Part shown: one piece after another, positions 2,386 to 19,800 of the stretch | Layout: every line of letters starts with the position of its first letter | How positions within the stretch are numbered: position 1 is the stretch's first letter | NCBI RefSeq assembly: GCF_001536285.1 | Contig: NZ_FAOZ01000009.1 | Location: 1-64,000, forward strand | DNA from: Parafrankia irregularis | GTDB taxonomy: Bacteria; Actinomycetota; Actinomycetes; Frankiales; Frankiaceae | DNA length: 64,000 nucleotides | Direction of reading: 5' to 3' | Program-made: the position numbers and the translations under genes | Notes under the pieces: generated by a model | What the model saw: the letters and a program-made list of their open reading frames with translations, nothing else | The model's database searches: none | Told to the model about the DNA's origin: nothing

Positions 2386-3081
2386 TCAGGCCGTCGGGGC
2401 TCGCAGCAGGGCGAGCGTCTGGTCCAGCTCGGCCTGCAGGATCTCGCTGGCACGCTCACCGTCGCCAGTGGCCACGGCCTCGACGAGGGCGGCGTGCGCG
2501 GCGTCACCGTGGTTGTGGTCGGTGGCGCGCAGGCCGAGCAGGTCGACCAGATCGATGAGCCCCCGGCGCAGCACCGGCAGGAACTCGGTGAACAGCCCGT
2601 CGAGCACCGGATTGTGCGCGGCCGCTACAACGGCGGCGTGCAGGGCGATGTCCGCGTCGACGAACGTCTCGTCGTCACCGCCGGCCGCGGCCCGTCGCCG
2701 ATCGAGAGCGTCGCGCATGGCGGTGATCTCCACCTCGGTGCGCCGCTGCGCGGCCAGCCGCACGGCCTGCACCTCCAGGAACATCCGGACCTCGTAGACG
2801 TCGCCCACCGCGGCGCGGCGCAGCGCGTCCCTCCAGTCCTGCGCCGGTTCGGTGGCGATGACGTACACGCCGGATCCCTGCCGGGCCTGCAGCAGCCCCG
2901 CTCCGGCCAGCGCGCGCAGCGCCTCGCGCACGGTGGAGCGACCCACACCCAGCGTCGCCGCGAGCGCGTTCTCCCCGGGCAGGCGGGTTCCCACCGGCCA
3001 CTCGCCGCTGGTGATCTGGTCACGCAGAAGCTGCGTCGCCTGGTCGACCAGCGACGTCGATCGCAACGCGCCGAGCGCCAT
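2386..3081 (-). CDS. GntR family transcriptional regulator, FadR/FCD subfamily
   Basis: A 231-residue DNA-binding repressor or activator. Residues about 8-75 form the GntR winged helix-turn-helix (LLRDQITSGEWPVGTRLPGE and GVGRSTVREALRALAGAGLL). Residues about 90-220 form an all-helical FCD ligand domain, including the D-x4-H pattern in DADIALHAAVVAAAHN that in this family helps bind a metal and a carboxylate ligand. The ligand is unknown; family members often sense acyl-CoA, lactate or other organic acids. It is convergent with the acyl-CoA synthetase and divergent from leuA. A short inverted repeat just upstream (TCAG-GTTGT-CTGA, about 3091-3103) could be its own operator, but this is weak. 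Confidence 0.88.
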   Translation of the reverse strand: MALGALRSTSLVDQATQLLRDQITSGEWPVGTRLPGENALAATLGVGRSTVREALRALAGAGLLQARQGSGVYVIATEPAQDWRDALRRAAVGDVYEVRMFLEVQAVRLAAQRRTEVEITAMRDALDRRRAAAGGDDETFVDADIALHAAVVAAAHNPVLDGLFTEFLPVLRRGLIDLVDLLGLRATDHNHGDAAHAALVEAVATGDGERASEILQAELDQTLALLRAPTA

Positions 3082-3134
3082 GTAAACCTCTCAGGTTGTC
3101 TGAGGAGCTGAGATGTGGAGTATGGTACCCCCCC

Positions 3135-3182
3135 GTGACGCTGGGCGTGTGGCTGCTTCTTACCCGCCGCGGCGGGGCCTGA
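3135..3182 (+). CDS. candidate leucine-rich leader peptide of leuA
   Basis: A 15-codon reading frame, MTLGVWLLLTRRGGA, starts at GTG 3135 and stops at TGA 3180-3182. It contains three consecutive leucine codons, CTG-CTT-CTT; CTT is rare in such GC-rich DNA, so the run would sense leucyl-tRNA supply well. The Leu run followed by TRRGGA resembles leader peptides described upstream of actinobacterial leuA genes. It lies 81 bp before leuA and is followed by hairpins. The weak point is its start: the nearest purine-rich site is about 14 bases upstream, and a second frame beginning at ATG 3113 has a better ribosome binding site but no leucine run. Function is inferred. Confidence 0.55.
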   Translation: MTLGVWLLLTRRGGA

Positions 3183-3224
3183 GGCGACCGGCACCCCGCC
3201 GCGGGGCCGCTGTGCCGCCGGTCG
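3163..3224 (+). promoter_or_regulatory. candidate leuA attenuator hairpins
   Basis: Two competing structures can be drawn. The palindrome CCCGCCG/CGGCGGG at 3163-3176 overlaps the end of the leader peptide. A second hairpin pairs CGACCGGC (3185-3192) perfectly with GCCGGTCG (3217-3224) around an inner CCCCGCCGCGGGG. The two GC blocks are complementary to each other, so a ribosome stalled on the leucine codons could switch the fold. No U-run follows, so translational control of leuA or pausing is more likely than classic termination. This is inference from base complementarity. Confidence 0.45.
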
Positions 3225-3263
3225 ACCACGCGCGACCGAGACCCGAAGGGCCGATCACCTCCT

Positions 3264-5204
3264 ATGCCCGATCATTCGAGTAGTCCATCTGTCGCGGCGG
3301 CGCCGGCCGCCGTCTCCTCGACACCCACCGCACCCACCGCACCCACCGCACCCTCCACATCCGCCGCCTTCCCTGCCGCCGCTGCCTTTGCCGACGCGGT
3401 CAGCTTCCCCACCGTCGTCCGTCCGCGGGGCGCGCTGCCGGCAGGTGCCGCGGCGTGGAACGCGCAACGCCCCAGCTCGATGCCGCACCAGCGGTACCTG
3501 CCCATCCACGAGCGGGTCGAGCTGCCGGCAGTCGACCCATCCAGCAGGATCTGGCCGACACGCCGCGTGGACACCGCGCCGCTGTGGGTGTCGGTGGACC
3601 TGCGGGACGGGAACCAGGCCCTGCGCGAGCCGATGGACACACCGCGCAAGCGGATGATGTTCGATCTGCTCGTCGCCATGGGTTTCAAGGAGATCGAGGT
3701 CGGCTACCCCTCCGCCAGCCAGACGGATTTCGACTTCGTCCGGCACCTGGTCGAGGACGATGCCGTCCCGCCGGATGTGACAACGGTGGTGTTCACCCCG
3801 GCACGGCGAGATCTCATCGAGCGGACCTTCGAGGCGATCGCCGGGATGCCGGCGGCCGGTGGCATGCCTCGCGTCGTCGTTCACCTCTATGTCGCCACGG
3901 CACCGGTCTGGCGGCAGGTCGTCCTGGGCCACGACCGTGCGGACCTGCTGGCGCTGGCACGCGACGCCGCGGAGCACATGGCGCGACTCGCCGAGTCCCC
4001 GCGCTCTCCCGACGTCCGCTTCCAGTTCTCTCCCGAGGTCTTCAACGCGACCGAACCCGACTTCGCGCTGGAGATCTGCAACAGCCTCAGCGAGCTGTGG
4101 GACGCCTGCCCGCAGCGACCGGTCATCCACAACCTGCCTGCGACGGTCGAGATCTCCACTCCGAACGTCTACGCCGATCAGATCGAGTACATGGACCGTC
4201 ACCTGGCGCGGCGGGAGTCGGTGATCCTGTCCGTCCACCCGCACAACGACCGCGGCACCGGGGTCGCGTGTGCGGAGCTGGCGCTGCTCGCCGGCGCGCA
4301 GCGGGTCGAGGGCTGCCTGTTCGGCAACGGCGAACGCACCGGCAACGTCGATCTGGTCACCCTCGCGCTCAACCTCTACTCCCAGGGCGTCAACCCGATG
4401 ATCGACTTCTCGGACATCGACGTCGTTCGGGAGACCGTCGAGCACTGCAACCGGGTGCCGGTCCATCCCCGGCACCCCTACGGGGGCGAGCTGGCCTACA
4501 CCGCCTTCTCCGGCACCCACCAGGACGCGATCAGCAAGGGGCTGGCACATCACGCCGCCCTCGCCGCCGCGCAGTCAGTGCCCGAGGGCCGAGCCCCGTG
4601 GGCCGTTCCGTACCTGCCGATAGACCCGGCGGACGTCGGGCGCAGCTACGAGGCGCTGATCCGGGTGAACAGCCAGTCCGGCAAGGGCGGGATCGCGCAT
4701 CTGCTGAACCTTCACTACGGCCTGGAGCTCCCCAGGGGCCTGCGGGCCGACTTCTCCCGGGTCGCGCAGGAAGCCGCTGACCGCGACGGCCGCGAGCTCG
4801 TGGCCAAGGAGCTCTGGGAGATGTTCCAGGCCCGCTATCTGGCACCGGTGCACCGCGGGCCGATCCTGCTGTCCAGTTGGCGGACCGCCGAGGCCGCACC
4901 GGGTGAGCACGAGTTCGTCGCCGAGCTGGCGACGTCCGGGGGCGAGGTGCGGACGCCTCGCCGGGGGATCGGGAACGGACCGTTGGCGGCGCTGACAGCG
5001 CTGCTCGCCGGGATCGGCGTCGAGGCGGAGATCGTCGCCTTCAGCGAGCACGCCATGGACCGTGGCGGCACCAGCCTCGCGACGGCCTACATCGAGATCG
5101 GCCTCAACGGTACGGAACGCTGGGGGGTCGGCCAGGACACCTCCGCGCTCACCGCATCGGTCAACGCCGTCATCGCCGCGGTCAACGGCCGGCTGGCCGG
5201 CTGA
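3264..5204 (+). CDS. leuA: 2-isopropylmalate synthase
   Basis: LeuA condenses acetyl-CoA with 2-ketoisovalerate, the first committed step of leucine synthesis, in the cytoplasm. The 646-residue protein shows the HMGL-like TIM barrel with [10 protein letters not shown] near residue 112, the metal-binding HPHNDRGTG near 322, and the glycine-rich [10 protein letters not shown] near 353. The last roughly 130 residues form the leucine-binding regulatory domain ending in a [10 protein letters not shown] type tail. It is longer than most LeuA proteins (about 560-600) because of an Ala/Pro/Ser-rich N-terminus with three in-frame PTA repeats. The start at ATG 3264 lacks a good ribosome binding site; the 11 bases before it, GATCACCTCCT, instead copy the 3' end of 16S rRNA. 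A leucine-rich leader precedes it. Identity is secure; the exact start is not. Confidence 0.93.
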
Positions 5205-5272
5205 ACGCCGGCCTGCGGGTCTGATTCGTCCGCGTCGCCCAGCCGGCGGCCGACCGGTGTTAGAACGATGAG

Positions 5273-5830
5273 ATGCGGCCGGATAAGACGAACACCGGTG
5301 AACTGCCGACCGAACCGGATGACGGCGTTCCCGCTCCAGACCTGGTCGCGGCGTGGCTGGTACTGGGAATGCTTCCGACGGAGCAGGTTCCAGGCTGGGC
5401 GGCGCACTGGATCGCGCGTGGTTATGACGGTGCGGCGCTGGTCGAGCTCGCCGGCCTCGATGGCAGGGATCCGGCCGCGGTCCGTGATCTGATCGAGGCG
5501 GCTCTGCGGGAATGCGGCCCGCTGGAGGTTGACGTCGCGGCGGTGGAACGAGACCACCTGCGGGCAGCTGCGCTGATGGCTTTCACCAATGTGGCTGAAC
5601 TGCTCTTTGCGGGGCGCGCGACCGAGCGATGGGTCGTCGACAGGGTTCATGAGACAGCCGGTGACCACTACTTCGACGAATCAGTGATGAATCTTCCGCT
5701 CGGTTCGTTGTTTCACCTTGCGGATGAATGGGATGCTGGCTGGGGGCGGCCGGTGCAGGAGCTTCGGAGCATTGTTCGGCAGGCTTGTCACCGGCAGCTG
5801 GAGGTGGCTTCGGTTCCCGGTCGTTCCTGA
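5273..5830 (+). CDS. hypothetical protein
   Basis: A 185-residue protein I do not recognise. It is acidic and mostly helical by composition, with no signal peptide, no clear membrane segment and no cysteine motif. The middle part (LVELAGLDGRDPAAVRDLIE, then VDRVHETAGDHYFDESVMNL) looks like a compact globular fold. Codon usage and GC content match the neighbours, which supports real coding. It begins 68 bp after leuA without a good ribosome binding site and ends before a strong hairpin at 5898, so it may be read from the leuA transcript. No function is proposed. Confidence 0.55.
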   Translation: MRPDKTNTGELPTEPDDGVPAPDLVAAWLVLGMLPTEQVPGWAAHWIARGYDGAALVELAGLDGRDPAAVRDLIEAALRECGPLEVDVAAVERDHLRAAALMAFTNVAELLFAGRATERWVVDRVHETAGDHYFDESVMNLPLGSLFHLADEWDAGWGRPVQELRSIVRQACHRQLEVASVPGRS

Positions 5831-5897
5831 TCCGTGTGGGCTTCGCGGGCTCGGTCCGGCTGGTGGTGCTGTCGGCGTCCATGGCGTCCATGGCGTC

Positions 5898-5918
5898 CCG
5901 GCCGGACGTTCCGGCCGG
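5898..5918 (+). terminator. hairpin, probable terminator
   Basis: A perfect 9-bp stem, CCGGCCGGA with TCCGGCCGG around a three-base loop, lies 68 bp after the stop at 5830. It has no T-run, as usual for actinobacterial terminators. It separates the hypothetical gene from the FHA-ABC transporter. Confidence 0.5.
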
Positions 5919-6047
5919 TGCGATGTCCGGTCATCCCACGAGATCCCGCGTCGAGGGGAGGCGGCGGATTCGCCGTACACCGGCTACTGCAGATGCGGTA
6001 GCCGGTGGCACTTTCGGGTTTCTGCGCGGTGGATATCGGCGTTGGCT

Positions 6048-9038
6048 ATGTACGGTGATGCCGTGTCCGGATGGCTGGCGGGGTTCCGAAATGTCGGTCG
6101 GGAGGAGTCGCGGCGTCGGACGTATCTAGCCGATATCGCCGTCGCGTGCGTTGCCTTTGGGCTGGGTGTGGTGATCGCCACGCAGGCCCCGGTGGATAGT
6201 TCCGGACTGAGTGCGACTTTCCTTGTTACAAGTGCGATTAGTTGTGCAGTTCTGGTGCTGCGCCGGCGCTGGCCGCCGCTGGTTCTCGGATTCGTCGCCG
6301 GGTGGTCCTGCCTCGTGAATCTCCTGGCCGGGCCACCGGGCGACGGGCCGTCGTTGCTGGCGGCCTGGGTGGCGTTCTACAGCGCCGGGGCCTACCGGCC
6401 GGCGAAGGTCGCGTGGACCGCTGCCGCCGGCGCCGTCATCCTGATCCTGCCGGCGGCGCTGGCCCGGCCGGACGCTGTGGTGCAGTCCGTCGCCGGGGTG
6501 CTCCTGTGGAGTGTCGGATCGACCTTCCTGGGGTGCCGGCTGCGGCGTGGGCGAGCGTATGTGGCGAAACTGGAGCAGCGGGCGCTGCGAGCCGAGCGAA
6601 ACCATGACGAGCGAAACCATGAACAACAGGCCCGGCGCGGGCGTGCGCGACACGACTCCGTGGCTGCCGGCGTGGACACGCGGTGGCCCGCCCCCCGGTG
6701 GGCGAGCGACGAGAACACCGTGCCGCTGGGCGTCCAGTGGCGTCGCAGCCAGGGCTCGGCTGTCCCGCAGATGATCCCCGTGGCCAGCGCCTCGGTCGGT
6801 GGCAGGCCGACCGCGTCCGGCTGGCGGCACGCTGCCACCTCCGGTCACGGCACCGCGTCGCGCTCGGCCACCGCTGTCACCTCCGGCAACGGCACCGTGT
6901 CGCTCTCCGCCACCGCTGCCACCGCCGTGGCCCCGTTCCCCGCCGCCACCGGTGCCGCCACCATCCCGGCCGGCGCCCACCACCGGCTGCACACGTTGCG
7001 TCCGGGGCGGCTGCATCTGGGCCGCTCCAGCGACAACGACATCACCGTCGGGGACCTGCTCGCCTCGCGCTACCACGCGGCGCTGGAGGTGCGGGCCGAC
7101 GGCGTGCGGATCGTCGATCTCGGCTCGGCGAACGGGACCTTCGTCAACGGCCGGAGGGTGACGGCGGCCCCGGTCGGCGAGCGTGACGTGATCGCCATCG
7201 GCCACCACCTCTACCAGCTCAAGGGCGACTGCCTCGTCGAGTACATCGACTCCGGCGACGTCGCCTTCGAGGCGCGGGCGCTGTCGGTGCACGCCGGCGC
7301 CAAGCAGCTGATGCACAACGTGACCTTCCGGCTGCCGGCCCGGTCGCTGCTCGCCGTGGTCGGGCCCAGCGGCGCGGGCAAGTCGACGCTGCTCAACGCG
7401 CTGGCCGGGTTCCGGCCCGCGGACGCCGGCACCGTCCGGTACGCGGGCCGGGACCTTTACGCGGACTACGAGGAGCTACGCCGACGGATCGGGTACGTGC
7501 CGCAGGCCGACCCGCTGCACGGCCAGCTCACCGTCCGGCAGGCCCTCGAGTACGGGGCCGAGCTGCGCTTTCCCGCGGACACCACCGCGCACGAGCGGCG
7601 CACCCGGGTGGAGGAGGTTCTCGACGAGCTCGGGCTGACCGCGCACGCCGACACCGCGGTGCACCGGCTCTCCGGTGGCCAGCGTAAGCGCACCTCGGTG
7701 GCGCTGGAACTGCTCACCTGCCCGTCGCTGCTGTTCCTGGACGAACCGACCTCCGGCCTCGACCCGGCCAACGACCAGTCCGTGATGCAGACACTGCGCG
7801 GCCTGGCCAAGGGGGCGGGGGCGAGTACGGACCGGGGCGCGGGCACGGGCCCGTCGGACGAGAACGGCCGCACCGTCATCGTCGTCACCCACAGCGTGCT
7901 TTTCCTGGATCTCTGTGACTACGTTCTCGTCCTGGCACCGGGTGGGCACGTGGCCTATTTCGGCCCGGTCGACGGGGCGCTGCACTTCTTCGGCAAGAAC
8001 GACTTCCGCGAGTTCGCGTCGGTGTTCCGCACGCTGGAGCACACCTCCGGGGCGGGGGCCGCCGCCCGGTTCCGGGCGTCGGAGTACTTCGTGCCGTCGG
8101 CCGTGGTCGCTCCGATGGCCCGCAGGCCGCCGGCGGATCTGCCCAGGGTGCGAAAACGGCCGGTCGTCGCCCAGCTTTCCACTCTCACCCGCCGCTACCT
8201 GCGGGTGATACGGGCCGACCATTCCTACCTGCGCCTGATCATCGTGTTCCCGTTCCTGCTCGGTTTCATTCCCAGAATGATTCCCGCGCCGGACGGGCTG
8301 GGCGCACTTCCGGACGCACCGAACCCCAACGCGCCGAAGGTGTTCGTCGTGCTGATCCTGTGCGGCTGTTTCATGGGTATGGCGAACTCCGTCCGGGAGA
8401 TCGTCAAGGAACGTGACATCTACCGGCGGGAACGGACCATCGGGCTTTCCCGCGCAGCCTATCTCGGTTCGAAGACGGTGGTGCTGACCGGGATCACCAC
8501 CGTGCAGTGCGTGGTCTGCACCTTCATCGGCCTGGTGGGCCGGGCACCGGCGGACGCCGTCGCGCTGGGCTCCCCGCTGGCCGAGATCCTCATCGCGATG
8601 ATCGTCACCGCGAACGCGTCGATGGTGATCGGTCTGCTGGTGTCGACGATCGTCGACACGGCGGACAAGACGATGCCCGTCCTGGTGCTGGTGACGATGG
8701 CCCAGCTCATGCTCTCCGGTGGTCTGGTGTCGCTGTCCGGCCGGACCTGGGTGGCGCAGATCTCCTGGATCGCGCCGGCGCGGTGGGGCTATGCGGCGCT
8801 TGCGTCCACCGCGGACATCAACGAGGTCTCGAAGCTGGGCTACGAGGGGCTGCGCACCGACCCGGCGGACCCGTTGTGGGAGCACAACCAGCACATCTGG
8901 ACCTTCGACATCGGCTTCGGCGTCATCCTGGCCTGCGCCACCCTCGCCCTGACCGCGGCCATGCTGCGCCGCGTCGATCCCAGGCTGACCCGCCCGACGC
9001 GCAGCGGCCCCGGCGTGGCGACGTCCGCCACCCGCTGA
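6048..9038 (+). CDS. FHA-domain ABC transporter with kinase-like membrane sensor N-terminus
   Basis: A 996-residue membrane protein with an unusual domain order. Residues about 25-165 contain four to five hydrophobic helices and a following charged coiled stretch (KLEQRALRAERNHDERNHEQ) that looks like the sensor region in front of the histidine box of actinobacterial sensor kinases; the kinase core itself is absent. A low-complexity Ala/Thr/Ser linker follows. Residues about 315-385 are an FHA domain (RLHLGRSSDNDITVGD, DLGSANGTFVNGRRV). The ABC ATPase has Walker A GPSGAGKST near 441, signature LSGGQRKRTSVAL near 541 and Walker B LLFLDEPTSGLD near 562. The last 270 residues are an ABC-2 type membrane domain with six hydrophobic segments. 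FHA-ABC-membrane order resembles mycobacterial Rv1747, whose FHA domains bind phosphothreonine. Substrate is unknown. The frame is open upstream to 5718, but 6048 (or GTG 6063) fits the first membrane helix better. Confidence 0.8.
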   Translation: MYGDAVSGWLAGFRNVGREESRRRTYLADIAVACVAFGLGVVIATQAPVDSSGLSATFLVTSAISCAVLVLRRRWPPLVLGFVAGWSCLVNLLAGPPGDGPSLLAAWVAFYSAGAYRPAKVAWTAAAGAVILILPAALARPDAVVQSVAGVLLWSVGSTFLGCRLRRGRAYVAKLEQRALRAERNHDERNHEQQARRGRARHDSVAAGVDTRWPAPRWASDENTVPLGVQWRRSQGSAVPQMIPVASASVGGRPTASGWRHAATSGHGTASRSATAVTSGNGTVSLSATAATAVAPFPAATGAATIPAGAHHRLHTLRPGRLHLGRSSDNDITVGDLLASRYHAALEVRADGVRIVDLGSANGTFVNGRRVTAAPVGERDVIAIGHHLYQLKGDCLVEYIDSGDVAFEARALSVHAGAKQLMHNVTFRLPARSLLAVVGPSGAGKSTLLNALAGFRPADAGTVRYAGRDLYADYEELRRRIGYVPQADPLHGQLTVRQALEYGAELRFPADTTAHERRTRVEEVLDELGLTAHADTAVHRLSGGQRKRTSVALELLTCPSLLFLDEPTSGLDPANDQSVMQTLRGLAKGAGASTDRGAGTGPSDENGRTVIVVTHSVLFLDLCDYVLVLAPGGHVAYFGPVDGALHFFGKNDFREFASVFRTLEHTSGAGAAARFRASEYFVPSAVVAPMARRPPADLPRVRKRPVVAQLSTLTRRYLRVIRADHSYLRLIIVFPFLLGFIPRMIPAPDGLGALPDAPNPNAPKVFVVLILCGCFMGMANSVREIVKERDIYRRERTIGLSRAAYLGSKTVVLTGITTVQCVVCTFIGLVGRAPADAVALGSPLAEILIAMIVTANASMVIGLLVSTIVDTADKTMPVLVLVTMAQLMLSGGLVSLSGRTWVAQISWIAPARWGYAALASTADINEVSKLGYEGLRTDPADPLWEHNQHIWTFDIGFGVILACATLALTAAMLRRVDPRLTRPTRSGPGVATSATR

Positions 9039-9052
9039 CGGCCGAGGGCCGT
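9038..9052. terminator. short hairpin between convergent genes
   Basis: ACGGCC-GAG-GGCCGT forms a perfect 6-bp stem overlapping the stop of the FHA-ABC gene and 21 bp from the end of the opposing ABC gene. It could act in both directions. It is short and has no T-run, so support is modest. Confidence 0.35.
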
Positions 9053-9072
9053 ACCGGGGATGCCGGCGGAGG

Positions 9073-10875
9073 TCAGCCCCGATCTCCGGCGGTGCCGGTC
9101 CGGGCGCCGGTTGTCAGCCGCCATCCGCGGGCACGTTCGCGTTCGCGCCAGAAGGCGGCGTACCGGCCATCCTGTGCGACGAGCTCCGGGTGCGTCCCGC
9201 ACTCGACGATCCGGCCGCCGTCCAGGACGGCGATCTGGTCGGCACGGATGATCGTGTCGAGCCGGTGCGCGATGACCAGGACGGTGCGGTCGGTGGCGAG
9301 CTCGGCGATGGCGTCGTGGACGGCCGCCTCGTTCTCCGTGTCGAGGGATGCCGTGGCCTCGTCGAGCAGGACGATGGGCGCGTCCTTGCACAGGGCGCGG
9401 GCGATGGCCACGCGCTGGCGCTCGCCGCCCGACAGCAGCCTCCCGCCCTCACCGACATGGCTGGCCCAGCCGTTCGGGAGCCGGGCGACGATCGAGTCGA
9501 CCTGGGCGCGTCGCGCCGCGTCGCGGACCTGTTCCTCGGTCGCACCGGGGTTGCCGAACCGGATGTTCTCCTCGATGGTGGTGTCGAGCAGGTAGACGTC
9601 CTGGAACACCAGCGCGATGTGCCCGAACAGCTCACGGCCGGTGACGTCGCGGACGTCCACGCCGCCCACGCGCACCGACCCGGAGCCGACGTCGTGGAAA
9701 CGGGCGATCAGCTTCGTGACCGTCGTCTTCCCGCCGCCGGAGGCGCCGACGAGCGCGGTGGTCCGCCCGGCCGGGACGGTGAGGTTCAGCCCGGTCAGGA
9801 CCTCGGGCCCGTCGGGATAGGAGAAGTGGACGTCGGTCAGCTCGATCCCGGCGTGGCCGATCTGCTTGCCGTCCGCGGGCTCGGGGAGCGGTTCGACCGC
9901 CAGGAGCTCGGCGATCCGCCGGGCGGAGGCAGCGCAGCTCTGCAGGATGCCGCCGAGGCCGACCAGCGCGTCGAGTGGGCGCAGCAGACTGATGCCGAGC
10001 ACGACCAGGGCGATCATCCGGCCCGGTTCGAGGCCGTCCTGCGTGGTGAGCGCGAGCCCGACGAGGAACAGGGCGGTGAGTGCCAGCTGGAGGCCGATCT
10101 CCCCGATGTACTCGCCGGGCAGCGAGCGGACGATCTTGCGCCGGGAGGCGCGGTGCTGGTCGGCCAGGGCGTCGTCCAGCGCGGCGCGACCGGCGGCGGT
10201 CTGGCCGGTGGCCCGCAGCGTCGGCTGGGCCCCCGCGAACTCGACGAGCCGGCTGCCGGCCTCGGTGGTGGCGGCGTTCTCGGCCGCTTCGGAGCGTTCG
10301 GTGAGCCGGCGGCTGACCGAGAGCGCGACCAGCACGAGCGGGACGGCGATCAGCGCGGCGAGTCCGATCCGCCAGTCGAAGCCGAGCAGGAACACGGCGA
10401 TCGTCGTGGGGGTCGCGACCACACTGATCAGGGCCTGCGCGAGGAACACGGTGGAGGAGACCCTGGCCACGTCACCGATGACCAGCTGCGGGACCTCGCC
10501 CCCCCGAGTCCCGTCGAACCAGCCCAGCGGCAGCGTCACCAGCTTGCCGCCGAGCCGGTTGTAGAGGTCTCGGCGCCAGACCGAGGACAGCCGCAGCGCC
10601 CGCGATCCCAGGTAGTAGTGCGCGAACCACCCGGCGACCGCCGCGGCGGTGAGGGGGAGCAGCCACCATGCCGCCGTGGTGGTGTCGCCGTCGAACAGGG
10701 CGGTCAGCAGTGGGAACAGCACGCCGAAGGCCACTCCCTCGCTGACGGCATAGCCGGCCACCGACGCGAGGTACCACCCCAGCGGCCGGTGCTGGCCGGC
10801 TGGGACGAGGCCGCGCAGGCTGCCCGCGACGCTGGCCGTACCCGCTGGACCCGCCGTGTTCGTCGAGGATGTCAA
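9073..10875 (-). CDS. ABC transporter permease-ATPase, IrtB/YbtQ-like half
   Basis: A 600-residue fused half-transporter: an N-terminal six-helix type IV (exporter-fold) membrane domain to about residue 310, then an ATPase with Walker A GASGGGKTT near 375, Q-loop FQDVYLLD, signature LLSGGERQRVAIARAL near 480, Walker B IVLLDEATASLD and H-loop IAHRLDTI. All catalytic residues are intact. Its start overlaps the stop of the upstream partner by 4 bp, so the two proteins are translationally coupled and probably form a heterodimer. Position beside iron boxes and a siderophore NRPS suggests transport of a ferric siderophore; IrtAB and YbtPQ are exporter-fold proteins that import siderophores. Import versus export cannot be decided from sequence. 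Confidence 0.85.
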   Translation of the reverse strand: MTSSTNTAGPAGTASVAGSLRGLVPAGQHRPLGWYLASVAGYAVSEGVAFGVLFPLLTALFDGDTTTAAWWLLPLTAAAVAGWFAHYYLGSRALRLSSVWRRDLYNRLGGKLVTLPLGWFDGTRGGEVPQLVIGDVARVSSTVFLAQALISVVATPTTIAVFLLGFDWRIGLAALIAVPLVLVALSVSRRLTERSEAAENAATTEAGSRLVEFAGAQPTLRATGQTAAGRAALDDALADQHRASRRKIVRSLPGEYIGEIGLQLALTALFLVGLALTTQDGLEPGRMIALVVLGISLLRPLDALVGLGGILQSCAASARRIAELLAVEPLPEPADGKQIGHAGIELTDVHFSYPDGPEVLTGLNLTVPAGRTTALVGASGGGKTTVTKLIARFHDVGSGSVRVGGVDVRDVTGRELFGHIALVFQDVYLLDTTIEENIRFGNPGATEEQVRDAARRAQVDSIVARLPNGWASHVGEGGRLLSGGERQRVAIARALCKDAPIVLLDEATASLDTENEAAVHDAIAELATDRTVLVIAHRLDTIIRADQIAVLDGGRIVECGTHPELVAQDGRYAAFWRERERARGWRLTTGARTGTAGDRG

Positions 10876-12695
10876 GCTCGTCCTTCCCGATCGCTCTGCT
10901 GCGCCCGCCAGAGCTGGGCGTAGCGCCCACCCGCGGCGAGCAGGTCGTCGTGCCGGCCGCGCTCGACGATCCGTCCGTCGTCGAGGACGAGGATCTGGTC
11001 GGCCGCGGTGACCGTGTACAGGCGGTGCGCGATCACGAGCAGCGTCCGGCCCGCGGCCAGCTCGGCCAGCGCGTCCTGGATGGCGGCCTCGGAGTCGGGG
11101 TCGGCGAACGCGGTGGCCTCGTCGAGGAGCACGATCGGCGTGCCGGCCAGCAGCGTGCGGGCGATCGCGATCCGCTGTGCCTCACCGCCGGACAGGTGCG
11201 CGTCCTCGCCGACGACCGAGTCGTAGCCCCGCGGCAGGGCGAGGACGCGGTCGTCGACGGCGGCCGCGCGGGCGGCGGCGCGGACCGCCTCGTCGGACGC
11301 GTCCGGGACCGCGAGGGCGATGTTGTCCCGGATCGTCCGGCGCAGCAGCACGACGTCCTGCAGCAGGAATCCGATGTGGCGGTAGAGCTCGTCGCGGTCG
11401 ATGTCGCGCAGGTCGGCGCCACCGAGGCGGATCGTGCCGGCGGTGACGTCGGCGAACCGGGCCATCAGCATCGCCAGCGTCGACTTGCCCGCCCCGGAGG
11501 AGCCGACCAGCGCGGTCACGGTGCCTGGCCGCAGCGTCGCGCTCACCCCGTGCAGGACCTCGCGACCGTCCGGGTAGGCGAAGTGGACGTCGTCGAGCTC
11601 GACGGTCGGCGGGATGCCCACGGTGCGGGCCCGGATGGGGTCGACCTCCGGCTGCCGGGGCTCGCGCAGCAGGCCACTGATCCGCCCGGCCGCGTCCTGA
11701 GCGCGTTCCCGCAGGTCCTGGGCCAGGTAGATCGGGGTGATCTGCTCGAACAGGCCGACGCCGAGGAGGATGAAGGCCACCAGATCCACCGGGTCGGTCC
11801 AGCCGGCGGCGACCAGGCCGGTCCCGACGGCCGTGACCACGAACACCACCGTCGCCGGTGCCACCGTGGCCCGCGCGACGCCGCGCGGGCGCAGGAAGAT
11901 GCGCTGGGCCTGCTCGTCGGCGTCGGCGTGCTCGGCCGCGGCCGCCGTGAACCGGCGGGAGCTCTGGTCGGCGGCGAAGGCCTTGACGACGCTGATGCCG
12001 CGCACCGTCTCCAGAACGGCCGCGGTCAGCTCGCTGTTGGCTGCCGCGATGCGGTTCACCTGGTCGGTCGCGCGCACCGCGAGCCGTGAGCGGATGGTCT
12101 GGGCCACCGCGATGAGCGCAACCGTGACCAGCGCGAGCGTCCAGTCGACCCAGAGCAGGTAGATGATCACGACGGTCGGGCCGGCCACCGCCGAGGCCAG
12201 GTCGGCGCGGGCGTGGGCGACAGCGTGGTGCAACGAGCCCACGTCGTCCTGCACCGTCGAGCGCACCCGAGCCGACACCCCGCCCGCGAACCAGCTCAGC
12301 GGCAGGGCGCTGACGTGCTCGGTCATCCGGCGGCGCAGCAGGTACGCGAGGTCGGCGTCGGCGAGATGGCTGAGCAGGCTCGCCGACGCGTACAGCACGA
12401 ACCGGGCGAGGAGCAGGCCGGCCGCGAGCCAGGCGAGCGACCACACCGACCGGCCCTCGTCGTTCAGCAGCCGCCGCGCGATCTCCACCAGCACGACCGC
12501 CGGGGCGATCGACAGCACCGCGGCCAGTGCCTGCAGCACGGCCGCGACGCCGATCCGGCCGCGGACCGCACGACGCAGCTCAGCCAGCTCGGCCGCTGTC
12601 TGGTCGGCCGCGGTCCGGTCGGCGGCGGCGTCGTCGGTGTCGGCGTCGGCCGTGTCCGCGTCCGCGTCGTGAGGCGGTGCCGTGACTTTCACCAC
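10872..12695 (-). CDS. ABC transporter permease-ATPase, IrtA/YbtP-like half
   Basis: A 607-residue partner of the downstream gene. A repetitive Asp/Ala/Thr-rich N-terminal tail (about 40 residues) is followed by a six-helix membrane domain and an ATPase with Walker A GSSGAGKST near residue 400, Q-loop LLQDVVLL, signature LSGGEAQRIAIARTL and Walker B IVLLDEATAFADPD. It lacks the flavin-binding siderophore-reductase domain found at the N-terminus of mycobacterial IrtA. The GTG start at 12695 has GGAGG about 10 bases upstream. A candidate iron box sits 82 bp upstream, so expression should rise under iron starvation. Role in siderophore transport is inferred from context and family. Confidence 0.85.
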   Translation of the reverse strand: MVKVTAPPHDADADTADADTDDAAADRTAADQTAAELAELRRAVRGRIGVAAVLQALAAVLSIAPAVVLVEIARRLLNDEGRSVWSLAWLAAGLLLARFVLYASASLLSHLADADLAYLLRRRMTEHVSALPLSWFAGGVSARVRSTVQDDVGSLHHAVAHARADLASAVAGPTVVIIYLLWVDWTLALVTVALIAVAQTIRSRLAVRATDQVNRIAAANSELTAAVLETVRGISVVKAFAADQSSRRFTAAAAEHADADEQAQRIFLRPRGVARATVAPATVVFVVTAVGTGLVAAGWTDPVDLVAFILLGVGLFEQITPIYLAQDLRERAQDAAGRISGLLREPRQPEVDPIRARTVGIPPTVELDDVHFAYPDGREVLHGVSATLRPGTVTALVGSSGAGKSTLAMLMARFADVTAGTIRLGGADLRDIDRDELYRHIGFLLQDVVLLRRTIRDNIALAVPDASDEAVRAAARAAAVDDRVLALPRGYDSVVGEDAHLSGGEAQRIAIARTLLAGTPIVLLDEATAFADPDSEAAIQDALAELAAGRTLLVIAHRLYTVTAADQILVLDDGRIVERGRHDDLLAAGGRYAQLWRAQQSDREGRA

Positions 12696-13088: not shown

Positions 13089-14858
13089 GTGGGCACATCC
13101 GATCAGGGCGGTGCTGGGTTGGGCGCTGGGCTGCACGGCTCGACAGGACTGCTCCGTGGGCAGCTCCTGGCCCGGCGGCGTGATCTCGCCCTCGGGGGTC
13201 TGGCGACCGTCGCCCAGCAGGCCGCCATGCTGGCGCTTCCCTGGTGTATCCAACGCGCGCTCGACCGAGGCGTCACCGCGCACTCGGTGCAGGGCACGGC
13301 CACCTGGGCGATTCCGACGGCGCTGTTCGCCGTCGTCTTCATGATCGGTGGGGCCGGAGGGCTGTGGTGGTCGGGCCGGGCCGCGAACGGCGTCGCCCAC
13401 GCGCTGCGCGCCGCGCTGGTCGAGCGGGTGGCCGCCTTCGACCGCCCCGCCCTCGCCCGCTTCGGGCACGGCGACCTGGCGACCAGAGTCACCCGGGATG
13501 TCGATCTCGTCCGGCAGTGGGTGCAGAGCCTCACGATCTGGGTCCGGATCGTGGTGACCATCGTGGTGGTGCTGCCCGCCTTCGCCCTGCTCGACTGGCG
13601 GCTGCTGGTGGTGGGAGTCGCCACGATCCCGCTGGTCGTGCTCGTCAACGGCTACTTCCCCGGCCGGTTCGGCGCGGCGAACGAGAGCCTGTCGGCGGCC
13701 TTCGCCGCCCGCGCCGACGCGGTGGACGATCTGCTGTCGGCCAGTGCCGCGGTCCGCGGCCTCGGCGGTGAGACGGCACTCGTCCGCCGTCACGACGACC
13801 GCAGCGCGGTCCTCACCGACCGGACGATGACCGCCGCGCGGATCTCGGCGTCCTGGGCCGCCGTCCCACCGGCCGTGCCCAGGCTGGCGATCGCGGCCGG
13901 GCTGGCCATCGGCGGTACGGCCGCCCTGCGCGGCGACCTCACCATCGGTGGCCTGGTCGCCTTCACCTCCTGGATGACGACGCTGGCGCTGGCGGTCACG
14001 GTCGCGGTCGAGCTGCTCGCCGCTCGCGGCCAGGCCCGCGTCGCCGCGGGGCGCATCGCCGGGGTTCTCGCCACCCCGGTGACCGACGACGACTCGGCCG
14101 ATGCGGAGGTTCCACCACCGGGCGCCGCGCTGCGCGCCACCGCCCTCACCGCCCGGCGCGCTGGAAGGCAGGTGCTCGGCCCGGTCGACCTGGCCGTCGG
14201 CCCGGGCGAGCTCGTCGTGGTGACCGGCCCGACCGGCAGCGGCAAGACGACGCTCGCCCGCCTGCTGTGCCGGGTGGAGGACCCGGCGTGCGGCTCGGTC
14301 AGCCTGGGTGGCGTCGACCTGCGGCGGGTGTCCCGCCTCGAGCTCGCCCACCGGATCGGCCTGGTGCCCCAACGGCCCCTGATTCTGGCGGGCACGGTCG
14401 CGGACAACATCCGGGTCGGCCGCGAGGTCGATCTCGACGAGTTGCGCGCGGCCTGCGTGGTGGCCGCGATCGACGACTTCGTGATGAGCCTGCCCGACGG
14501 CTACGACACCGAGCTGGGGGAGCGCGGGGCGACCGTCTCCGGCGGGCAGGGGCAGCGGCTCGCGTTGGCGCGTGGGCTGGTCGGACGTCCGGACGTGCTC
14601 GTGCTCGACGATGCCACCGCGGCGGTCGACGCCGCGACCGAGGCCACGATTCTGCGCCGGCTGCGCGAGTGGTCGCCGCGGACCGCGCTCGTCGTGATCT
14701 CCCATCGCCCGGCTGTCCTGGCCGCCGCCGACCGGGTCGTCCGGCTGGCCCCTGCCCCTGCGCCGGCGCCGGCACGGTCCGTGCCGGCCGCCGAGCACGT
14801 GCCCGCCGGCTCGCGTGGCGGTGCGGGCACCGTCGGTGTGCGGGGCGGCGATGGCTGA
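13089..14858 (+). CDS. ABC transporter permease-ATPase with non-canonical Walker B
   Basis: A 589-residue exporter-fold half-transporter: membrane domain to about residue 310, then an ATPase with Walker A GPTGSGKTT near 379, signature VSGGQGQRLALARGL and H-loop ISHRPAVL. The residue after the Walker B aspartate, normally the catalytic glutamate, is Asp (VLVLDDATAAVD), which predicts a degenerate ATP site as in heterodimeric exporters. The GTG start is followed by a Gly-rich stretch and then helix 1. It overlaps the next gene by 8 bp. An iron box lies 128 bp upstream. With its partner it forms the second ABC pair of the locus; one pair may export and the other import the siderophore, which is inference. 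Confidence 0.85.
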   Translation: MGTSDQGGAGLGAGLHGSTGLLRGQLLARRRDLALGGLATVAQQAAMLALPWCIQRALDRGVTAHSVQGTATWAIPTALFAVVFMIGGAGGLWWSGRAANGVAHALRAALVERVAAFDRPALARFGHGDLATRVTRDVDLVRQWVQSLTIWVRIVVTIVVVLPAFALLDWRLLVVGVATIPLVVLVNGYFPGRFGAANESLSAAFAARADAVDDLLSASAAVRGLGGETALVRRHDDRSAVLTDRTMTAARISASWAAVPPAVPRLAIAAGLAIGGTAALRGDLTIGGLVAFTSWMTTLALAVTVAVELLAARGQARVAAGRIAGVLATPVTDDDSADAEVPPPGAALRATALTARRAGRQVLGPVDLAVGPGELVVVTGPTGSGKTTLARLLCRVEDPACGSVSLGGVDLRRVSRLELAHRIGLVPQRPLILAGTVADNIRVGREVDLDELRAACVVAAIDDFVMSLPDGYDTELGERGATVSGGQGQRLALARGLVGRPDVLVLDDATAAVDAATEATILRRLREWSPRTALVVISHRPAVLAAADRVVRLAPAPAPAPARSVPAAEHVPAGSRGGAGTVGVRGGDG

Positions 14859-16578
14859 GGTCCGGGTACTGGCCGACGACCCGCCCCTCGCAGGCACCTT
14901 CCGGCGCTTCTGGCCGTACCTGCGCCCGCACCGGGCGATCCTGGCCGCCGCGCTGCTGGCGAGTGTGGCCAGCACGGCGGCGGTGGTGGGCATCGCGCCC
15001 GCCATCGGGTGGGGAGTCGACGCCGTGTCCGCGGGCGACCGGGGCCGGCTGTGGCAGGCGGTCGTCCTGATGGTCGGGCTCGCCCTGGCCAGGATGCTCC
15101 TGCTGCGCTGGTCGGAGCTGCTGCTGTCCGCGGCCGGGGAGCGGACCATCCGCGGCCTGCGGGATCTCGTCGTGGCACGCCTCGCCCGGGCACCTCTGCG
15201 CTTCATCGAGGCCCACCGGACCGGTGACCTGCTGCGCCGGTCGACCGGCGAGATCGCCGACCTCACGCTCTTCCTGCGCGACCAGCTGCCCAACCTGCTC
15301 GGCGTCAGCCTCACGATCGCTTTGACCACGGTGTTGCTGCTGGTCTACTCATGGCTGCTCACGTTGCTGCTCGTCGTGCTGTTCCTGCCCCTGGCGATCG
15401 CGATCGTGGCCTGGTTCAACCGGGGCGCGTCGCAGGCGTACGGCCGCCAGGCCGCGGCCGACGCGGCGATGACGGCGGCCTTCACCGAGACGCTCAGCGC
15501 GCATGAGGCCCTGGTCGCCCCCGGACGACCCCAGGAGTGGATTCGCCGGTTCCGGGAGGACAACGACAGGCTCCAGCAGGTGGCGGACCGCACGCTCGTC
15601 GTGCAGAACCGGCTGGAGCTGTTCGGCATGATCGAGGGGCTGGCCACCGCCGCGCTGCTGCTGCTCAGCGTCTGGCTGGTGCGCGCGGGGCATCTCGGCG
15701 TCGGCACGGTCGTCGTCTTCGTGGTCGCGACCCGCAACCTGTTCGAAGGCGTGCTGACGTTGTCGGGACTGGCCGGCCAGGCCCAGCTGGCCCGGGTGGG
15801 CCTGGCTCGCCTGACGGACCTGCTCGACGCACTGCCGCCGGTGCCGGGCTCGGCGCCGGTCCCGGGGACAGGCCTGGCGGCCGTGCCGAGCGCCCGCGGG
15901 GGCGGCGGGGGCGGCGGCCTGCCGGCGCATGGCGACCTGGTCGCCGACGACCTCGGCTTCGGCTACGTCGACGGCGCGGAGGTGCTGCGCGACGTCTCGG
16001 TCACCTTCCCGACCGGCGACCGGGCCGGCCTCGTCGGCGTCACCGGGTCCGGGAAGACGACCCTGGCGAAGCTGCTCGCCGGGCTCTACGAGCCGGACGT
16101 CGGGGCGGTGCGCTACGGGGGCGTCGATCTGCGGGCCGTCCCGGCGCGGGAGGTTCGGGCCCGCATCGTCCTCGTTCCGCAGCAGGTGCACATCATCACC
16201 GGCACGCTGGCGGAGAACCTGGCGCTGGTGCCGGGCGCGCCGGGCCGGCCGGCGATGGAGCGGGCCGTCGACATCCTCGGCCTCGGCGACTGGGCGGCGC
16301 GGCTGGGTGGTCTCGACGCCGATCTCGGCACCCGGGGCGAACGGCTCTCCGCCGGCGAGCGCCAGATCGTCGGGTTGTTGCGGGCGGCGCTCATCGATCC
16401 ACCGGTACTGCTGCTCGACGAGGCGACGGCCGACCTCGACCCGGATGCCGCGCTCCAACTGGAAACGGCGGTCGAGCGGCTGCGACCCGGCCGGACGCTG
16501 GTCGTCATCGCGCATCGGCCGAGCACCATCGAACGCCTGCCGCGAATCGTCCGACTTGATGCCGGACGCCTGGTCTGA
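14851..16578 (+). CDS. ABC transporter permease-ATPase, canonical partner
   Basis: A 575-residue half-transporter beginning at ATG 14851, inside the end of the preceding gene (ATGGCTGA overlap), which implies translational coupling. The membrane domain covers about residues 20-310, followed by a Gly-rich linker (eight consecutive glycines) and an ATPase with Walker A GVTGSGKTT near 401, signature LSAGERQIVGLLRAAL, intact Walker B VLLLDEATADLD and H-loop IAHRPSTI. It supplies the catalytic glutamate that its partner lacks. It ends 67 bp before the iron box of the NRPS gene. Confidence 0.85.
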   Translation: MAEVRVLADDPPLAGTFRRFWPYLRPHRAILAAALLASVASTAAVVGIAPAIGWGVDAVSAGDRGRLWQAVVLMVGLALARMLLLRWSELLLSAAGERTIRGLRDLVVARLARAPLRFIEAHRTGDLLRRSTGEIADLTLFLRDQLPNLLGVSLTIALTTVLLLVYSWLLTLLLVVLFLPLAIAIVAWFNRGASQAYGRQAAADAAMTAAFTETLSAHEALVAPGRPQEWIRRFREDNDRLQQVADRTLVVQNRLELFGMIEGLATAALLLLSVWLVRAGHLGVGTVVVFVVATRNLFEGVLTLSGLAGQAQLARVGLARLTDLLDALPPVPGSAPVPGTGLAAVPSARGGGGGGGLPAHGDLVADDLGFGYVDGAEVLRDVSVTFPTGDRAGLVGVTGSGKTTLAKLLAGLYEPDVGAVRYGGVDLRAVPAREVRARIVLVPQQVHIITGTLAENLALVPGAPGRPAMERAVDILGLGDWAARLGGLDADLGTRGERLSAGERQIVGLLRAALIDPPVLLLDEATADLDPDAALQLETAVERLRPGRTLVVIAHRPSTIERLPRIVRLDAGRLV

Positions 16579-16664: not shown

Positions 16665-16830
16665 TCTGTGCGAGGATAGTGCGCCTGCCTGCCAGTCAGC
16701 GGTCGTTGCCCCAGGCGGCGGCCGTCGCCTCTGTCGGTCACCGGCCGCTCACCGGCCCCTGAAGCGGTAACCCATCGGTTGCCAGTCGATGCCCCTCGTC
16801 CCGACCCCCATCACCGGAAGGACGTCCACT

Positions 16831-19800
16831 GTGGCGAGTCCCGACTCCGCGCAGCGCAGGCGCGACCTGCTTCGCCGTCAGCTGGCGGCCGAGCGGCTGA
16901 CGCGCGACCCGGTGGGTGGCGTCGGCGATCGGTCTCGCCGGAGCGCCGGCCAGGGGCATCCGGTCAGCCCGGCGCAGCGCCGCATGTGGTTCCTGTCACG
17001 GCTTGACCCCACCAGCGCCGCCTACACGATCTCGGCCGCGTTCGAGCTGACCGGCCCGCTTGACCCGGAAGCCCTGCACCGCGCGCTGATCGCCGTCGCC
17101 GGTCGGCACGAGATCCTCCGCACGACCTACCGGGCCACCTCGGACGGGCAGCTGCAGCAGGTGGTCCGGGACGACATCCTGCCGGCGTGGCACAGCGTGG
17201 ATCTCTCGGCCGAGCCGGCCGAGCCGGCCGAGCTGGCCGAACCGGCCGCGGAAGCCGACGAGCGTGCGCGCGCGATCGCGCTGGCAGCGGCGCGGCGCCC
17301 GTTCGACCTGACCACCGAGTCCCCGCTGCGGGTCACCCTGCTGCGGCACGGCCCGCAGCTGCACACCCTGGCGCTCGCCGCCCATCACATCGCCTGGGAC
17401 GACGCGTCCTGGGACGTCTTCTTCGGCGACCTGCAGGCCGCCTACGCCGGGAAGGACGGCGCGGGCGCCGGTGCCGCCGTCCAGTTCCTCGACGCCGCGG
17501 CCCCGGTCGCGGACCAGCCCGTCCCGGCGGAGGGCCTCACCTACTGGCGCGACAGGCTGTTGCCGCTGGCCGAACCCGTGCGGCTGCCGGGGCCGGACGC
17601 CGACGACCGCGGCCCCGACGACCTGCCGGTCGCCGCGGCCCCGCACCGACGTGACACCGGCCGGCAGGTCGTCCACCTCGCGGCAGGGGAGCTCGCCGGG
17701 CAGGTGCGCGAACTGGCGACCGCCCACGGCGCGACACCGTTCATGGTGCTGCTGGCCGCCTACACGGCGCTGATCCACCGGGTGACCGGGGCCACCGACG
17801 TCACCGTCGGCTCCCCGGTCGTGAACCGGGAGGGTGCCGCGACCGAGGGCGTCATCGGCTACTTCGGCAACACGATCTGCCTGCGTCTGCCGGTGGGGCC
17901 GCTGGACAGCTTCACCGACCTGCTGCGACGGACCCGTGACGTCTGCCGGGGCGCGTTCGCGCACGCTGACGTCGACCTCGCGGACGTCGTGCGTGAGCTC
18001 AACCCCGACCGGTCGGACGGCGTGTCCAGCCTGTTCACCACGATGTTCGCCGTCCGCACGCAGGCCGCCGCCGCGCTGCGCGGCGGCGGCCTGGGTGACG
18101 GTGACGGCCTGCGTGGTGAGCGCCGTCCCCTGCACAACGGCACGGCGCAGTTCCCGCTGATGGTCGTGGCCGAGATCGGTACCGGGCCGGACGGGGCCGA
18201 CTCGCTCGAACTGGAGACGACCTTCCAGCCGGGCTCGGTGTCCGGGGTGTTCGCGCGCTCCCTCGGAGCACGGCTGGAGCGGCTGCTCACCGCGGCGCTC
18301 GCCGACCCGGCCGCGGGGATCGGCTTCATCGACCTGCTCACGCCGGCCGAGCACGCCCGCCTCGCGGGGGCCTGGGCCGACCCCACGGCGGACGCTGACA
18401 CCACGGCGGACACTGACACCACGGCGGGCTCTGACATCACGGCGGGCTCTGCGCCCGGCGAGCCGTGGGTGGTGCCCTTCATGTCGTGGGCCGAGGCCGA
18501 CCCGGACCGGACGGCCCTGGTCACCGCCGAGCGTTCGGTCTCCTACGGGGAGCTGGCCACCGAGGCTGACGCGCTCGGGCGCCGGCTGGCCGACCACGGC
18601 GCCCGGCCGGGCACCATCGTCGGGATCGCCCTGCCCCGATCGATCGAGCTGGTGGTCGCGCTTGCGGCCACCGGCCGCGCCGGCGCCGCCTACCTTCCGC
18701 TCGACGTCGACTACCCACCCGACCGCCTCGCCCTGATGGTCGAGGACGCGGCGCCGGCGGTGCTGGTCACGACGCGCGAGCTGGCTCCCGGGATCCCGCT
18801 CGCGCCGGGGACCCGCCTCGTTCTCGTCGACGAGCCGGCACCGGTGCCCGAGGTGGCGCCGGAGCCCGCGTCCGCGTCCGCGCCGTGGCCGCCTGCCATC
18901 GCACCGGACAGCCCGGTGTACGTCATCTACACGTCGGGTTCGACCGGCCGGCCTAAGGGCGTCCTGGTCGGCCATCGATCGCTGGCCGGTTTCCTGGCGG
19001 AGTTCAGCGAGACCGTGGGAATCGGGCCGGCCGACCGCGTGCTGGCCGCGACCACACCGGCGTTCGACCCGAGCACGGTCGAGCTGCTGGCGCCGCTGAC
19101 CGTCGGCGCCTCGGTCCGTCTCGTCGCCAGTGAGGCGGCTCGGGACCCCTCGGAGCTCGCCCGGCTCCTGAGCGCCGGCGCGGTCACGCTGGCCCAGGCG
19201 ACACCGTCGCGCTGGCGTTCCATCCTCGCCGCCGACCCCGCCCCCTACCCCGGCGTACGGGTCCTGTGCGGTGCCGAGCCGCTGACCCTCGACCTCGCGC
19301 GGGAACTGCGCTCCCGCGCGGCGAGCCTGACCAACGTGTACGGCCCCACCGAGACGACGGTCTGGGCGACGACCGGTGAGGTGCGCGGGTCGACGGGCGA
19401 GAGCGAGCGGATCACGGTCGGCACGCCGCTGCGCAACACCCGGGCCTACGTGCTGGACGGCGCGCTGATGCCGGTGCCGCCTGGCGTCATCGGCGAGCTC
19501 TACCTCACCGGTTCCGGCGTGGCCCATGGCTACCTGGCCCGCCCGGCGCTCACCTCCAACCGTTACGTGGCGAACCCGTTCGGCTTCGGCGAGCGGATGT
19601 ACCGCACCGGTGACCTCGCCCGCTGGACCGCGGACGGTGAGCTGCTCCTCGCCGGCCGTTCGGACGACCAGGTCAAGATCCGTGGTTTCCGGATCGAGCC
19701 GGGCGAGATCGAGACGGTGCTGGCGCGCCACCCGGCGGTCGCGCGCTGCGCCGTCATCGCGCGGGAGGACGGGCCGGCGGGACGCGCGCTCGTCGCCTAC

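Follow-up and report, generated by a model that had tools for sequence, protein, structure and literature searches.

The window analysed here comprises positions 1-64,000 of contig NZ_FAOZ01000009.1 from the 9.5-Mb draft genome of Parafrankia irregularis (G000). On its forward strand, positions 6048-9038 form a single stop-free frame of 996 residues, which joins the membrane head of a sensor kinase to an FHA-ABC transporter. The gene, starting at ATG 6048, is delimited by its translation, the list of open reading frames and a full-length relative (94% identity) in Parafrankia sp. EUN1f (G004). A palindrome, CACCGGCTACTGCA-ga-TGCGGTAGCCGGTG (5978-6007; an inverted repeat with 14-nt arms, 93% complementary), ends 40 bp upstream of the ATG. 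The reading frame stays open 5' of this codon, up to TTG 5718, and a start upstream of ATG 6048 would place the palindrome within the gene. The fusion is genuine, kept in two genomes and lineage-restricted, and it is a variant of the Rv1747-like transporter family that carries a kinase sensor head.

A Pfam search with the translation of 6048-9035 (full-length scans: the best 25 of 27 families) identified four domains on the forward strand: a DUF7134 sensor-kinase membrane head at residues 21-156 (6108-6515; E 2.5e-9, 37.5 bits, cut-off 27), an FHA domain at residues 324-385 (7017-7202; E 9.6e-16), an ABC ATPase domain (ABC_tran) at residues 423-569 (7314-7754; E 6.5e-32) and an ABC-2 permease domain (ABC2_membrane) at residues 709-920 (8172-8807; E 1e-19). 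Neither HisKA_3 nor HATPase_c was among the best 25 of 27 families listed, and a head-only scan (E up to 1) yielded DUF7134 and a weak DUF4231 match, without HisKA_3. In NCBIfam the best 25 of 186 families were generic ABC families, all below their cut-offs. A kinase-type helical coil follows the head at residues 162-194 (6531-6629), as defined by the alignment with kinases and by a low-confidence predicted helix at 141-206; a repeat search found an exact 15-nt tandem duplication inside it (6593-6607/6608-6622), and the residues it repeats are present in EUN1f too. The subsequent stretch ARRGRARHDSVA (residues 195-206, 6630-6665, with H202 and D203) is a probable H-box relic, in register with TRIARELHDVVA of the kinases, and judged from this register it is probably the last segment of kinase origin. 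It leads into an Ala/Gly/Ser/Thr-rich linker (residues 207-311, 6666-6980), recognised by the composition of 207-312 and by its ratio of nonsynonymous to synonymous substitution rates (dN/dS). This linker is probably disordered, and no secondary structure was predicted in it by the low-confidence model. In sliding windows along the fusion frame, the GC content at third codon positions is 0.77-0.95 across the linker (6530-7160) and lower, 0.60-0.70, in windows over 6080-6350.

The sequence-only reading had recognised an actinobacterial sensor-kinase head in frame with an FHA-ABC transporter related to Rv1747, and had proposed to check the linker for read-through. The DUF7134 match and the kinase alignment bear out the type of the head, the single open frame and the Pfam domains bear out the connection, and the third-position GC content agrees with read-through. 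Its statement that the kinase core is absent holds in so far as no such domain is among the listed Pfam families, whereas the H-box probably survives at H202-D203. The relationship to Rv1747 likewise stands, with the amendment that one FHA domain is kept and that the head takes the position of the other. Like the Rv1747-like proteins, the fusion combines FHA, ABC ATPase and ABC-2 permease in a single chain, but Pfam finds one FHA stretch instead of their two N-terminal ones. With the HisKA_3 sensor kinases it shares the DUF7134 head and the coil, but beyond the H-box-like segment the remainder of the DHp domain is absent, and so are the HATPase_c core and a partner regulator gene; with queries from G003:C225 and G002:C120, the 64-kb window gave no kinase-core or regulator match. 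Since it thus lacks both the second FHA and the kinase core, the protein is best named a half-exporter of the FHA-ABC type that bears a kinase sensor head.

The head probably has six membrane helices, although hydropathy by itself gives five peaks. The structure models are weak (mean predicted local distance difference test scores of 54.8 and 45.5), so that the helix positions alone are usable; they indicate an N-terminal helix followed by six helices, with the long helix ending at residue 206. A Foldseek search with the head model returned nothing at E 0.001 or better. The charged loops (RRR 22-24, RRR 72-74, RPAK 117-120 and RLRRGR 164-169) fit a six-helix arrangement in which both termini are inside, which would make the coil, linker, FHA and ATPase cytoplasmic. 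In 22 aligned rows the residues G325 R326, S340 R341 x H343 and N362 G363 of the FHA, and G439-T447, L541-Q545, D565 E566 and H615 of the ATPase, are invariant; we take these to be the phosphothreonine-binding and ATPase motifs, respectively. The GR/SxxH/NG residues of FHA domains are also given in excerpts of PMC1262709. Given the invariance of both sets, the exporter can be expected to be active and its FHA to function.

The EUN1f protein was found in a pattern scan of public genomes, is gap-free over residues 1-996, and was accompanied by a second match spanning the ATPase part only. The DNA match between the window and EUN1f (5183-9131) contains 11 gaps, all of which must fall outside the coding frame because the 996 codons are free of indels. 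Upstream, between the fusion and the AMP-ligase gene, the EUN1f contig carries nothing that corresponds to about 2.7 kb of the window (2465-5182); this segment holds most of a GntR-type gene and what looks by eye like an isopropylmalate synthase gene. By Nei-Gojobori counts against the EUN1f copy, the head (residues 1-180) has 17.5 nonsynonymous changes over 383.7 sites and 16.5 synonymous changes over 156.3 sites, a dN/dS of 0.41 (Fisher p 0.019, rounded counts). The corresponding ratios are 0.18 for the FHA, 0.17 for the ATPase, 0.28 for the permease and 1.15 for the linker (205-312). The head thus seems constrained, though less than the transporter, in a comparison based on few changes.

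FHA1, FHA2, the ATPase, the kinase head, the kinase core and the regulator were mapped by tblastn on fetched loci. The usual layout of the transporter relatives is FHA1-linker-FHA2-ABC-ABC2, as in Rv1747: among the loci other than the fusions, 43 match FHA2, and 39 of these have FHA1 upstream. Two of the four loci without FHA1 are cut by contig ends (L096, L054), one is frameshifted (L084) and one carries a Ser/Thr kinase instead of FHA1 (L120); a further locus (L074) has FHA1 and the ATPase without FHA2 and stops at a contig end. The single FHA of the fusion matches FHA2, the head occupies the FHA1 position, and the transporter-side join falls within the FHA1-FHA2 linker of the relatives. The fusion is 70-78% identical to full-length relatives across about 630-680 residues. 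In the ABC tree the fusion pair lies within the genus (87/91, a group of 14 rows), with a partial EUN1f copy on a long branch (G004:C309) as its sister (100/97), and it is separate from the copy common to G000, G001, G003, G004 and G005 (G000:C1 and its kin).

Two of these loci differ from the usual layout in other ways. The frameshifted one (L084 318-1667, G004:C293) is an FHA-ABC copy of EUN1f that lacks FHA1, has an exact palindrome core upstream and is interrupted in the ATPase; it is a decaying relative. In L120 5473-9243 (G000:C2), and also in L040 7-3438 (G002:C2), Pfam finds a Ser/Thr kinase, a linker, FHA, ABC and ABC2 in one protein, the kinase sitting at the FHA1 position as if PknF and Rv1747 had been fused into one chain. 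Other rows in the family, with about 53% identity and long open frames, may be of this Ser/Thr-kinase type.

The nearest separate protein to the head is the DUF7134-HisKA_3-HATPase kinase of G002:C137 (54% identity in the head), and the head is 41% identical to that of the kinase of G003:C225. The kinase alignment extends over the coil; a gap of four residues and the 15-nt duplication follow, and then ARRGRARHDSVA, at the place of which the kinases have TRIARELHDVVA or a near variant. H202 and D203 are invariant across seven aligned rows. Against four kinases, this segment gives the top score within residues 185-312 in both fusion genomes, and 47 of 20000 shuffled versions of the stretch reach the score at any position. 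Read as a relic of the H-box, which the alignment makes probable, the segment marks the junction, which probably lies directly after the H-box of the kinase. Kinase and FHA-ABC genes adjoin at other places in the genus, as the arrangements at three loci indicate: G003:C225 and G002:C120 each carry a kinase of the DUF7134 type with a LuxR-type regulator, divergent from an FHA-ABC gene, and at G001:C193 such a gene lies convergent with a set of MmpL, kinase and regulator. The kinase of the latter set has no DUF7134-head match and is 67% like the MmpL-operon kinase of G001:C159, in which Pfam finds HisKA_3 and HATPase_c only. An origin by inversion of the divergent G003:C225 pair is not supported, as the head is nearer to G002:C137 (54% versus 41%) and the ABC part of the fusion is not grouped with that of G003:C225 in the tree.

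The palindrome upstream of the fusion is probably the operator of a NarL/LuxR-type response regulator that was inherited with the kinase head; binding of such a regulator is deduced from the positions of its copies. In the kinase gene of G002:C137 (L072) and in the fusion alike, the core CTACTGC-n4-GCAGTAG lies 56 bp upstream of the codon with which conservation begins, and the palindrome also precedes the kinases of G003:C225, G002:C120 and G001:C144, the last of which is divergent to an MmpL gene. It lies upstream of the FHA-ABC genes at G003:C225, G002:C120 and G004:C293, between the FHA-ABC gene and a divergent gene at G001:C193 (where it could serve that gene too), and at the MmpL-kinase-regulator sets of G001:C159 and G003:C269. 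Allowing at most one mismatch, 17 places were found in six genomes, 11 of them at loci of a kinase, of FHA-ABC, of MmpL-kinase or of the two fusions; two of the 11 are the source loci of the search pattern. Two others fall inside other mechanically picked frames (G000:C21, G001:C130:47097), no kinase, FHA-ABC or MmpL gene was found at G003:C98, and the count leaves G001:C130:129333, G001:C172 and G002:C69 unassigned to either group. Five of the six places with an exact inner core are at loci of these four kinds.

A matrix built from 13 non-fusion sites scores 22.4 at 5976-6009, the sole site in the window above 13, whereas 200 mononucleotide shuffles peak at 19.2 and 590,649 bases of other loci contain no site above 20. 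Six loci picked from 50 rows by regulator homology, not by the pattern, were added as a test. The three with an MmpL match have sites scoring 22.2 (G000:C6), 20.9 (G004:C307) and 22.2/25.5 (G002:C80), located 66-141 bp before the MmpL match (73 bp in G000:C6 and G004:C307). At G000:C17 a weaker site (15.3) separates the kinase from a divergent MmpL gene. Sites before MmpL genes are found at L197 11175-11208, L198 7453-7486, L199 11146-11254, L159 10698-10731 and L161 5456-5489. The Parafrankia sets of MmpL, kinase and LuxR-type regulator with a common palindrome are probably a regulon of envelope exporters. Both fusion genomes keep an MmpL-kinase-regulator operon with the palindrome, which suggests that the likely reader of the site has been retained.

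The fusion has a narrow distribution, the FHA-ABC transporters a broad one. The sequence-only reading had proposed a survey of this domain order across the actinobacteria, and the survey carried out found the fusion in the genus only. The head is matched in five of the six genus genomes (1e-8) and is joined to the transporter in two of them (G000 and G004). The head is also matched in six of 35 family genomes (1e-10; the domain-order search covered the same 35) and in six of 296 genomes of a class sample (1e-12) that left out EUN1f, which would have matched; neither gave an additional fusion. As the surveys were queried with the fusion's own head, fusions with a dissimilar head would escape them. 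The new matches of the class sample (G176, G215) are open frames of 434 and 420 residues, and at G000:C17 a kinase follows a long open stretch, which accounts for the long frame (1430) there. FHA-ABC relatives are present in 33 of the 35 family genomes (1e-150), and about half of their rows were read as loci. In the titles and abstract starts of the open-licence literature, no description of such a fusion was found, nor anything on DUF7134, on MmpL with two-component systems or on Ser/Thr kinase-FHA-ABC proteins in Frankia. Excerpts of PMC1262709 mention a kinase that carries a 'MalT-like ABC transporter domain', in a layout that differs from that of the fusion.

On balance, we favour the explanation that sensor and half-exporter were fused under selection, with loss of the phospho-relay and of FHA1 and with retention of the transcriptional input. 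A kinase segment consisting of promoter, operator, DUF7134 head, coil and H-box would have been attached to a half-transporter of the Rv1747 type, within the linker between its FHA domains, a join that replaced FHA1 and dropped the HisKA_3-type kinase core. The product would most likely be a dimeric half-size ABC-2 exporter, with what we take to be an ABCG-like order in its ABC part, and with its N-terminus anchored in the membrane by a dimerising head of the kinase type. Kinase heads and half-transporters both work as dimers, which makes the join geometrically sensible. A NarL/LuxR-type regulator from a surviving MmpL-kinase-regulator operon would bind the palindrome and control expression of the fusion; this transcriptional input, suggested by the shared palindrome, is the best supported. 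Head and coil would pair or cluster two half-transporters and keep their FHA and ATPase domains close to the membrane; in Rv1747, FHA1 and the linker may play this part. The remaining FHA may still read phosphothreonine, perhaps within the Thr-containing linker, and the cargo may be an envelope lipid or a lipid-like compound. A linker of about 105 residues that evolves almost freely favours tethering or clustering over a rigid lever; a signal through the head to the ATPase is possible, and the explanation does not need it.

Several observations weigh against this explanation. Raw counts of the palindrome at up to one mismatch are 0-5 per genome and strand, against 15-37 for the reversed-pattern control, and the exact inner core occurs at 6 places, as often as in the reversed control, so that the argument rests on location. 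Three of the six test loci (G003:C241, G000:C36, G005:C21) have no matrix site above 13; the kinase of the first (L200) is 75% identical to that of G001:C159 and its regulator is closely related too, and no MmpL match was found there. The EUN1f copy of the palindrome differs from the core twice. The fusion's ABC part is not grouped with the kinase-linked copies in the tree, and 18 kb around G002:C137 contain no regulator or FHA-ABC match, which means that the donor locus has not been seen. The structural models are of low confidence, and expression and regulator binding of the fusion are predictions. Finally, the constraint on the head derives from two genomes and few changes; its dN/dS exceeds that of the FHA and the ATPase (0.17-0.18), and its nonsynonymous rate is not significantly different from that of the linker (p 0.21). 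The latter two points, together with the occurrence in two genomes only, would fit an accident that supplied a promoter and a harmless membrane anchor, leaving a drifting head on a protein of which only the FHA-ABC part works. We consider this rather doubtful, given that the 996 codons have acquired neither a stop nor an indel while 11 gaps accumulated outside, and that the nonsynonymous rate in the head is below the synonymous one.

Two other readings keep a function for the head in signalling. The sequence-only reading had proposed that phosphothreonine and a membrane signal both gate the transporter, the head passing its signal through the coil to the ATPase and the FHA serving as second input. 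Consistent with this are the conserved FHA binding residues, the modest constraint on the head and the single low-confidence helix that runs from the last head helix through coil and H-box to residue 206; but FHA1 is missing, and the low-complexity linker, with a dN/dS near 1.1, gives no rigid signal path. Such gating is not borne out by these data, and we regard it as unlikely. A bolder possibility, advanced only tentatively, is that a two-component system has collapsed into a one-component sensor-exporter, in which the head acts directly on the transporter, of a kind that kinases related to it would control by way of a regulator, and the regulator's operator still sets expression. An internal start, for example at ATG 6771 (residue 242), could produce a plain FHA-ABC protein, with the head a separate short product or not made at all. 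The headless copy without FHA1 in EUN1f (G004:C293), frameshifted as it is, provides a precedent; yet by eye no clear ribosome-binding sequence is present in the 24 bases before ATG 6771, and the frame is preserved across the linker in both genomes, making this very improbable. An assembly error or a chance frame might be suspected from the relatives that carry the parts as separate genes, which the sequence-only reading would have taken as a sign of it, and from the contig breaks that interrupt several paralogues in related genomes. The same gap-free join in EUN1f rules this out for practical purposes. As the fusion is common to two genomes and its head shows modest signs of purifying selection, the separate-gene relatives within the genus point instead to a lineage-restricted fusion.

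Immediately downstream of the fusion in the window, two pairs of ABC membrane/ATPase genes are located at 9073-12695 (reverse strand) and 13089-16578 (forward strand), followed by a nonribosomal peptide synthetase frame of 6604 residues at 16789-36603.

Sensor kinases often adjoin transporters, and the case of a sensor acting on a transporter without a relay is rarely testable; the fusion is a natural construct for it, the more so as a similar head, transporter type and operator type occur both separate and fused in sister genomes. In addition, one palindrome connects two-component systems of Parafrankia with what is probably a regulon of MmpL and FHA-ABC envelope exporters. Within these bacteria the N-terminal slot of this exporter family accepts FHA1, a Ser/Thr kinase or a sensor head and may be seen as a swappable input port. 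In Rv1747-like transporters, the first FHA may accordingly be a control module open to exchange.

The closest characterised system is Rv1747 of Mycobacterium tuberculosis, in which, according to excerpts of the respective papers, FHA-1, a disordered linker, FHA-2, ATPase and permease form one protein that works with the kinase PknF (PMC9312465, PMC5549992, PMC3908365). The transporter forms clusters, and its FHA-linker-FHA part condenses in isolation, more readily once phosphorylated by PknF (review PMC9312465); the same sources describe binding of phospho-Rv2623 by FHA I as a proposed restraint (PMC5549992) and a reported or proposed role in the export of envelope glycolipids (PMC5549992, PMC9312465). 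The fusion resembles Rv1747 in its order of FHA, ATPase and permease, in the disordered linker before the ATPase-side FHA and in being one chain, but differs in having a kinase membrane head instead of FHA1 and a kinase-type palindrome upstream. Also unlike Rv1747, it has no Ser/Thr kinase among its Pfam-scanned neighbours, the part of the window searched for one. With the DUF7134-HisKA_3-HATPase kinases (G002:C137, G003:C225, G002:C120), whose profile has DesK as the solved relative of its coil and H-box part, it shares the head, the coil, the probable H-box and the upstream palindrome, whereas the second DHp helix, the HATPase core and a partner regulator gene in the window are lacking. The Ser/Thr-kinase-FHA-ABC-ABC2 proteins (G000:C2, G002:C2) likewise carry another signalling module at the place of FHA1, in their case a Pkinase domain and a long linker rich in proline, and no membrane head. 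By analogy with Rv1747, the FHA1 input would have been swapped for a membrane anchor and dimeriser, placed under the operator of the former kinase.

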